Source: Gammaproteobacteria bacterium
Lineage (GTDB): Bacteria > Pseudomonadota > Gammaproteobacteria > Chromatiales > Chromatiaceae
NCBI GenBank assembly: GCA_029287695.1
Contig: JARFQQ010000199.1
Location: 1-15,160 of the forward strand
Reading direction: 5' to 3'
DNA length: 15,160 nucleotides
A program made the position numbers and the translations under genes. The notes beneath the pieces were generated by a model. That model did not search any database and was not told the origin of the DNA. It saw nothing but the letters and a program-made list of their open reading frames with translations. Shown one piece after another: positions 6,052-15,160 of the stretch. Each line of letters opens with the position of its first letter. Within the stretch, counting starts at the first letter, position 1.

Positions 6052-6126
6052 TCGAGTCTCCCGGGGTCAGGCCGTCTTCTCGACGCGATACCCAATAAAT
6101 TAAACAACCTTCAGAGAAGGCCGCGA

Positions 6127-6156
6127 ATTATATAGGAAAACGGCTGGCGCTGCCAA
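6127..6156 (-). promoter_or_regulatory. Candidate sigma-70 promoter upstream of rpsH
   Basis: On the gene strand, TTGGCA (6156-6151, five of six matches to TTGACA) is followed after 18 nt by a perfect TATAAT (6132-6127). A start near 6120 would give a leader of about 70 nt before the rpsH ATG at 6051. The element lies in the only long spacer of the spc operon, between rpsN and rpsH. The boxes are seen directly; promoter activity is inferred. It would let rpsH and the eight genes behind it be transcribed independently of rplN-rpsN. Confidence 0.65.
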
Positions 6157-6159
6157 CCG
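6135..6159 (-). terminator. Candidate weak intrinsic terminator overlapping the rpsH promoter
   Basis: The gene-strand RNA can form an 8-bp GC-rich stem, CGGUUGGC (6159-6152) with GCCAGCCG (6148-6141), including one G-U pair. It has a 3-nt loop and is followed by UUUUCC (6140-6135). The wobble pair makes it better in the gene direction than in the opposite one. The U-run is only four long, so termination is probably partial if it occurs. The same bases carry the -35 box of the promoter. Confidence 0.4.
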
Positions 6160-6179
6160 CTGTCCACAACTAATTTTTC

Positions 6180-6205
6180 GTCTCCCGGCACCGGAACCGG
6201 GAGAC
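6180..6205 (-). other. Perfect 9-bp inverted repeat (hairpin) after rpsN
   Basis: GTCTCCCGG (6180-6188) pairs exactly with CCGGGAGAC (6197-6205) around an 8-nt loop, starting 14 nt downstream of the rpsN stop. Such a stem would be stable in RNA from either strand. On the gene strand it is followed by GAAAAATTAG rather than a U-run, so it is not a standard intrinsic terminator. It could protect the 3' end of the rplN-rpsN message, or be a processing or protein-binding site; the sequence does not decide which. Confidence 0.5.
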
Positions 6206-6219
6206 ATTTGAAAACGCTA

Positions 6220-12448: not shown

Positions 12449-12763
12449 TCAATTCAGCTTGATCTGTACGTCCACACCGGCGGCCAGATCCAGCTTCATC
12501 AGAGAATCGACAGTCTTGTCGCTCGGATCAACGATCTCAAGCAGACGCTTGTGTGTACGGATTTCATACTGATCGCGCGCGTCCTTGTTGACGTGCGGTG
12601 AAATCAGCACTGTGAAACGCTCCTTGCGCGTCGGCAGCGGGATCGGACCCCTGACGACAGAACCGGTAAGCTTGGCGGTTTAAACGATTTCGCGCGCCTA
12701 CTGATCAATCAGGCGATGATCTAACGATTTCAGTCGGATACGTATTCTCTGACCTGTTTCCAT
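12449..12763 (-). pseudogene. rpsJ: 30S ribosomal protein S10 (uS10), interrupted by two in-frame stops as sequenced
   Basis: S10 is an essential protein of the 30S head and, as NusE, a transcription antitermination factor. Read from the ATG at 12763, the frame gives 104 codons aligned with the whole family: METGQRIRIRLK at the start, [20 protein letters not shown] at 39-58, and [14 protein letters not shown] at the end. However, codon 22 is TAG (12698-12700, after LIDQ) and codon 28 is TAA (12680-12682, within REIV-TAK, where the family has Glu). Nearby residues are also odd: Ser13-Leu14 for the usual Ala-Phe, Leu32 for Arg, and Ser35 for Ala. Every one fits a G:C to T:A change, while codons 36-104 look intact. 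There is no frameshift. TAA ends many neighbouring genes, so recoding is not plausible. A sequence or assembly error is the simplest explanation; a real pseudogene would need a second copy. Confidence 0.9.
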
Positions 12764-12768
12764 TGTAT

Positions 12769-13959
<1,191 letters not shown>

Positions 13960-13991: not shown

Positions 13992-15119
13992 TTACTCAAG
14001 GCTGCCCGCGATATTGGACGGCAGCTCACTGTACTTGACGAACTCCATCGAGTAGGTCGCCCTGCCCTGGGTCGCGCCGCGCAGCGATGTCGCATAACCG
14101 AACATCTCCGCCAGCGGCACTTCCGCTCTCACCAGCTTGCCGGCAGGGCTGTCTTCCATGCCCTGGACCGTGCCGCGGCGAGAGTTGAGGTCGCCAATGA
14201 CGTCACCCATGTTCTCTTCAGGGGTGACGACTTCAACCTTCATGATCGGCTCCAGTATGACCGGCCCGGCTTTCACCGCGCCCTCCTTGAAGCAGATCGA
14301 ACCGGCGATCTTGAACGCCTGTTCCGACGAATCCACGTCGTGGTACGAACCGTCGTACAGGGTCACCTTGACATCGACGACCGGGTAACCGGCCTTGACG
14401 CCACTCTTCATGGCCTCCTGTACGCCCTTGTCGACCGCCGGGATGTACTCCTTCGGCACGACGCCGCCAACGATGTCGTTGACGAACTCGTAGCCGCTTC
14501 CCGACTCGCCAGGCTCGATGCGCAGGTAGACGTGGCCATACTGGCCGCGGCCGCCCGACTGGCGGACGAACTTGCCTTCCTGCTCGACGGCTTTACGAAT
14601 CGTCTCGCGGTAGGCGACCTGCGGATGACCGACGTTCGCCTCGACGTGAAACTCGCGCTTCATCCTGTCGACGATGATCTCGAGGTGCAGTTCGCCCATT
14701 CCCGAGATGATCGTCTGGCCGGACTCCTCGTCCGTATGTACGCGGAACGACGGATCTTCCTGCGCCAGCTTCTGCAGCGCAATGCCCATCTTCTCCTGGT
14801 CGGCCTTCGTCCTGGGCTCGACCGCCACCGAGATGACAGGCTCCGGAAAATCCATCCTTTCCAGAATAATCACGTTGTTGATGTCGCACAGGGTCTCGCC
14901 CGTGGTGACATCCTTGAGACCCACCGCGGCCGCGATATCGCCGGCGCGCACTTCCTTGATCTCCTCGCGCGAATTCGCATGCATCTGCAGAATCCGCCCG
15001 ACACGCTCCTTCTTGCCCTTGACCGAGTTCAGGATCGTGTCACCCGACTTCAGCACGCCCGAGTAGACGCGGAAGAAAGTCAGCGTACCGACAAACGGGT
15101 CGGTCGCGATCTTGAACGC
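13992..15119 (-). CDS. fusA: Translation elongation factor G, C-terminal part (5' end missing)
   Basis: EF-G is the GTPase that drives translocation and, with RRF, ribosome recycling. The genuine sequence is 375 residues, from [20 protein letters not shown] to the C-terminus NIAGSLE, covering domains II to V of a protein of about 700 residues; the GTPase domain is absent. Landmarks are [37 protein letters not shown] in domain [17 protein letters not shown], and [20 protein letters not shown] in domain V. The frame continues to a GTG at 15134 that would add MYKRQ, but those codons lie in adapter sequence, so the gene is simply truncated by the end of the contig. It is followed by tuf after 32 nt, as in the str operon. 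Confidence 0.97.
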
Positions 15120-15160
15120 CTGTCTCTTATACACATCTCCGAGCCCACGAGACGAGCTTG
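15120..15160. other. Nextera/Tn5 sequencing adapter contamination at the contig end
   Basis: Bases 15120-15138 read CTGTCTCTTATACACATCT, exactly the 19-bp Tn5 mosaic end used in Nextera libraries. Bases 15139-15153 (CCGAGCCCACGAGAC) are the standard continuation of the read-2 adapter. The last seven bases, GAGCTTG, are where an index would start. This is library sequence, not genome and not a natural transposon. It creates the false MYKRQ N-terminus on the fusA fragment. The C at 15120 could belong to either side of the junction. Confidence 0.97.

Follow-up and report, generated by a model that had tools for sequence, protein, structure and literature searches.

The window, by which we mean the whole stretch of DNA analysed (15,160 bases), corresponds to contig C36 in a draft genome whose 226 contigs total 1,355,251 bases and which is 56.5% complete. 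Its minus strand carries the 3' part of fusA (13992-15119), tuf encoding EF-Tu in an open frame of 396 aa (12769-13959), and the S10, spc and alpha ribosomal operons as far as rpoA, where gene names are presumed ones that draw on tblastn matches. The contig ends in an untrimmed Illumina Nextera adapter (15120-15160, no strand). An Alpha operon ribosome binding site (Rfam RF00140) was placed upstream of rpsM at 1987-2075 on the minus strand with a score barely above gathering, and a tRNA scan of the window identified no tRNA. Between rpsN and rpsH lie 168 bases (6052-6219) in which no gene was noted and at which the alignments to two related loci (L116 and L117) break.

The rpsJ gene encoding ribosomal protein S10 (uS10) occupies 12449-12763 on the minus strand, with tuf and rplC on either side, and consists of 104 codons plus a stop. 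Positions 1-98 matched PF00338 with 115.4 bits against a family cut-off of 21.2, and the match includes both an in-frame TAG at codon 22 (12698-12700, minus strand) and an in-frame TAA at codon 28 (12680-12682, minus strand), so that the frame is not open across the whole domain. The original prediction had described a frame continuous over 104 codons and interrupted by these two stops, and translation revealed both stops and no indel. It had also proposed that the first usable start downstream would leave about 53 residues, which corresponds to a GTG-started remnant of 53 aa (12449-12610, minus strand) in the list of open reading frames of at least 50 aa. Profile searching of the bin, at 56.5% completeness, found no second rpsJ.

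Among the related loci compared, the stops were peculiar to C36. Among 55 genomes searched, 44 yielded S10 including the one holding C36, and none of the 44 relatives' loci, from 43 genomes, contained a stop; relatives have serine at codon 22, and codon 28 encodes Glu in the same genus and either Glu or Asp across the broader sample. F14, S22, E/D28 and R32 were all kept in 119 of 120 S10 proteins among the matches listed, the exception being P0197 with Leu at residue 14. The closest S10 among the matches listed, P0121 (found on 95 contigs), differs from C36 only at codons 2, 14, 22, 28 and 32, and its protein is identical over codons 33-104. These five differences define patch C (91 bases; 12669-12759, minus strand), and their confinement to codons 2-32 of 104 gave p = 0.003 in a test that was picked post hoc. 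The best L3 besides C36's own reached 91% among the 120 matches listed; P0121 may thus come from another species than C36, which counts against reading the differences as artefact.

At the codon level rpsJ was compared with five of six relatives, the row for L115 being excluded as one codon out of register. Six odd codons had been predicted, of which 14, 22, 28 and 32 stand, residues kept by the relatives being lost there in C36. Serine occurs at positions 13 and 35 in all four same-genus S10 loci (G001, two loci in G002, and G003), and codons 13 (TCG) and 35 (TCT) are therefore ordinary sense variation. The predicted list had missed codon 2, which is Glu in C36 and Ala in P0121, a C-to-A type difference. 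The further claim that every change was G-to-T or C-to-A was supported for codons 22 and 28, each of which is one G:C-to-T:A change from the same-genus codons, and applies to codons 14 and 32 only if the strain used TTC and CGT, the same-genus relatives having TTT and CGC. TTC makes up 69% of Phe codons in the long open reading frames of this bin.

The neighbouring tuf had been considered normal, a description that could not be upheld, as it carries two patches of like kind. A second tuf in the bin (contig C14, 1-1182; L131) is normal-looking, begins with its contig at tuf codon 4, is 93.4% identical to C36 and is followed by a probable tRNA-Trp gene recognized by eye. Relative to it, patch A (80 bases; 13835-13914, minus strand) affects tuf codons 16, 40 and 42 with two G>T changes and one T>A, and patch B (31 bases; 13467-13497, minus strand) affects codons 155, 162, 163, 164 and 165 with four C>A changes and one G>A. 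Residues 16, 42, 155 and 163-165 were all kept in 101 of 104 EF-Tu proteins of 396 aa among the matches listed (the first eight matches listed were longer proteins and were left aside), and the remaining three differ at residue 42 only. This variation at EF-Tu 42, together with the Leu 14 of P0197, means that some patch residues can vary.

Two EF-Tu records from other contigs, P0010 (a 16,293-base contig) and P0011 (a 123,062-base contig), lack the patches. Over the stretch shared with C36 they differ only at residues 16, 40, 42, 155, 162, 163, 164, 165 and 209, apart from the start residue of P0010 (V for M), P0011 beginning at residue 4. Both agree with C36 at residues that vary among near EF-Tu proteins, for example 172, 239, 245, 306, 317 and 364, and they therefore seem to represent this same species in a patch-free form.

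Departures from conservation were counted across the operon at amino-acid columns conserved in at least 95% and at nucleotide sites conserved in at least 97% of the relatives, the nucleotide test excluding matches below 60% identity as well as L003-L007, whose contigs are those already covered by L112-L117. Amino-acid departures numbered six in tuf and three in rpsJ, in comparison to eight across the 16 other deeply sampled genes; rpsJ residue 28 fell below the 95% threshold because Asp is common there. Nucleotide departures were found at 5 of 567 sites in tuf and 3 of 149 in rpsJ, seven of these eight being G:C-to-T:A, and at 8 of 2,539 sites in the 16 other genes, two of them in that class. 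The class thus accounted for 7 of 716 sites in tuf and rpsJ together versus 2 of 2,539 elsewhere (Fisher p = 6e-4). On either side of the pair, fusA had one departure at 428 nucleotide sites, which was outside the class, and rplC had none at 193 conserved sites, as its predicted normality had implied. The ten genes from rplF to rpoA, with five relatives each, lay outside the conserved-site test and displayed no excess of the class (26 of 159 departures, where 2 of 12 substitution types would be expected).

The substitution class also separates the patches from natural divergence. Eleven of the 13 patch differences are G:C-to-T:A, the other two being T>A and G>A, in comparison to 8 of 233 differences between C36 and C14 or C69 outside the patches (Fisher p ~1e-12), these two sets having been chosen differently in that patch differences alter amino acids and natural ones are mostly synonymous, and the class of rpsJ codons 14 and 32 depending on assumed starting codons. 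Natural nonsynonymous differences in tuf included none in the class (0 of 7). Arranged in strand order, the 11 class events read as two G>T, seven C>A and two G>T, which is three runs (P = 0.033 for three or fewer). One sense per fragment would be expected under 8-oxoguanine damage, and this blocked order mildly fits single-strand damage per fragment, but patch C mixes both senses. As C>A and G>T both occur on the coding strand, a single oxidized strand of one fragment would be insufficient, and the presence of both senses inside patch C would need two fragments or two damaged strands.

The site itself appears to have been difficult to assemble. The survey covered 134 of the 226 contigs in the bin, of which 17 read as N (47,028 bases) and 117 were readable. 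A Nextera adapter lies near the end of six of the readable contigs (C36, C11, C26, C45, C63 and C122). When the ends of these 117 were scanned for exact overlaps between 25 and 399 bases long, six contig pairs emerged, every one overlapping by exactly 141 bases and one of them, C69/C14, doing so inside tuf; such uniformity is apparently a sign of graph assembly with k = 141, the largest default of MEGAHIT. Other contigs of the bin break in tuf, and 14 of 29 relatives' loci end within 1.3 kb upstream of rpsJ, the place of tuf in the C36 gene order. In four more contig pairs the overlapping ends are about 97% identical, with 47 mismatches of scattered strain variation, which means that related strains are mixed within the bin; no G:C-to-T:A patches were present in these four overlaps, a point against the error reading. 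In addition, contig C69 carries another fusA-tuf start (1-1318; L186) that is 85.9% identical to C36 13810-15120, indicating that two organisms or strains contribute to the bin.

Across the bin, none of 65 sampled domain matches contained an in-frame stop (ABC_tran 21, GTP_EFTU 10, HATPase_c 15 and Response_reg 19), one of these matches being the tuf of C36 itself. In the 134 contigs (17 of them unreadable) 57 same-frame pairs of open reading frames are split by a stop, and by eye these resemble normal gene termini with another start after them. A codon-usage scan for in-frame stops listed many antisense frames and was uninformative, and a plasmid search gave nothing of use. A mutator was rejected because the remaining deeply sampled genes of the operon have normal-looking departures, as do the 65 stop-free domain matches sampled.

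Taken together, these results suggest that the two stops and their companion changes are absent from the living genome and represent a local sequence error in the draft assembly, a reading which we infer from sequence comparison and to which we assign a probability of roughly 0.87. The stops are judged likely to be errors because the same odd class clusters in the neighbouring tuf and because no relative examined has them. The patches also have the scale and setting of reads at a hard-to-assemble site, being 80, 31 and 91 bases long, in or beside tuf, on a contig that carries adapter in an assembly with 141-base overlaps. The original prediction had favoured error in one transversion class beside a duplicated tuf over a pseudogene, and the proportion of 11 of 13 against 8 of 233, the records of near relatives that lack the changes and the contig breaks in tuf all agree with it. 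The organism presumably makes normal S10 and EF-Tu.

A possible mechanism would begin with the path of this strain around the multi-copy, strain-shared tuf, which would rest on few fragments. Some of these may have carried oxidized guanines or been poorly base-called and still have entered the consensus, and their errors would have been kept because low depth could not outvote them, the physical source being either damage or base-calling. An assembler working at k = 141 normally drops singletons, which weighs against this account; the errors would have had to pass by way of smaller-k contigs or through overlapping or duplicate read pairs.

Alternatively, C36 may be a chimera in which the fusA-tuf of one strain was joined via tuf to the S10 operon of another, with errors arising at the joins. 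The second fusA-tuf start at 85.9% identity, the four contig pairs with ends about 97% identical and the 141-base meeting of C14 and C69 in tuf would all accommodate such a join, yet a chimera by itself makes neither stops nor G:C-to-T:A changes at conserved sites. Outside the patches, moreover, the EF-Tu of C36 departs from P0010 and P0011 only at residue 209 of the shared stretch (the start aside), which argues that tuf itself came from one strain, and we regard a chimera as improbable.

A genuine burst of G:C-to-T:A mutation across tuf and rpsJ in one lineage, with S10 coming from a further gene copy or else the lineage dying out, would take the changes as they stand in the deposited sequence, and in a bin 56.5% complete a second rpsJ could be missing. 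We consider this quite improbable, as the S10 of C36 is the sole one found in the bin and lies at the usual site between tuf and rplC, its codons 33-104 are unchanged in protein relative to P0121, and selection seems to be normal in the 16 further genes with deep sampling. Three separate patches inside 1.25 kb, none of them as long as the 141-base overlap unit, would also be odd for biology, and a mutator would be expected to mark the whole genome, yet the sampled domains are all free of stops. The form of this explanation in which a local burst, for example by oxidation of exposed single strands at a very highly transcribed junction, left a cell S10-less or S10-duplicated and with crippled EF-Tu appears very improbable. 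Recoding or readthrough of TAG and TAA, for which the frame continuing without an indel could be cited, deserves almost no weight given that two different stops replace different residues (Ser and Glu) in one gene, all 44 relatives' loci have sense codons, tuf terminates with TAA and rpsJ with TGA, missense changes of like class adjoin the stops, and stops that should recur in other conserved genes were found in none of the 65 domains sampled.

Interpreted as sequence error, the locus is biologically ordinary rather than a broken essential gene; were the stops real, it would be highly surprising for a cell to lack usable S10. The result can be taken as a warning that this draft genome seems to have read-scale patches of error in the universal markers rpsJ and tuf, and such patches would bias gene catalogues and marker trees, as well as any claim of a pseudogene or of recoding.

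In comparison with known systems, the C36 rpsJ is like a bacterial rpsJ pseudogene in having nonsense codons within its frame, and unlike one in being the only S10 found in its bin, in an otherwise intact operon, with changes mostly of one class that are limited to the first 32 codons and a tuf that is likewise altered. Clustered Illumina errors offer a second comparison. PMC4787001 describes substitutions that tend to cluster, with an error rate climbing towards the read end, and a Nextera/HiSeq profile in which G is misread mostly as T and errors at A, C and T go mostly to G. The clustering and the G-to-T changes of C36 are alike in kind, but errors at C in that profile go mostly to G and not to A, and plain base-calling error therefore does not predict the C>A changes. 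The third comparison is oxidative library damage by 8-oxoguanine, ex vivo damage being characterized in PMC12390751 by G>T without a matching C>A on the opposite strand. C36 resembles this artefact in substitution class (G>T or C>A) and in its weakly strand-blocked order, and differs from it in that its changes belong to an assembled consensus and are packed in patches of 31-91 bases, in both senses and with two changes outside the class.
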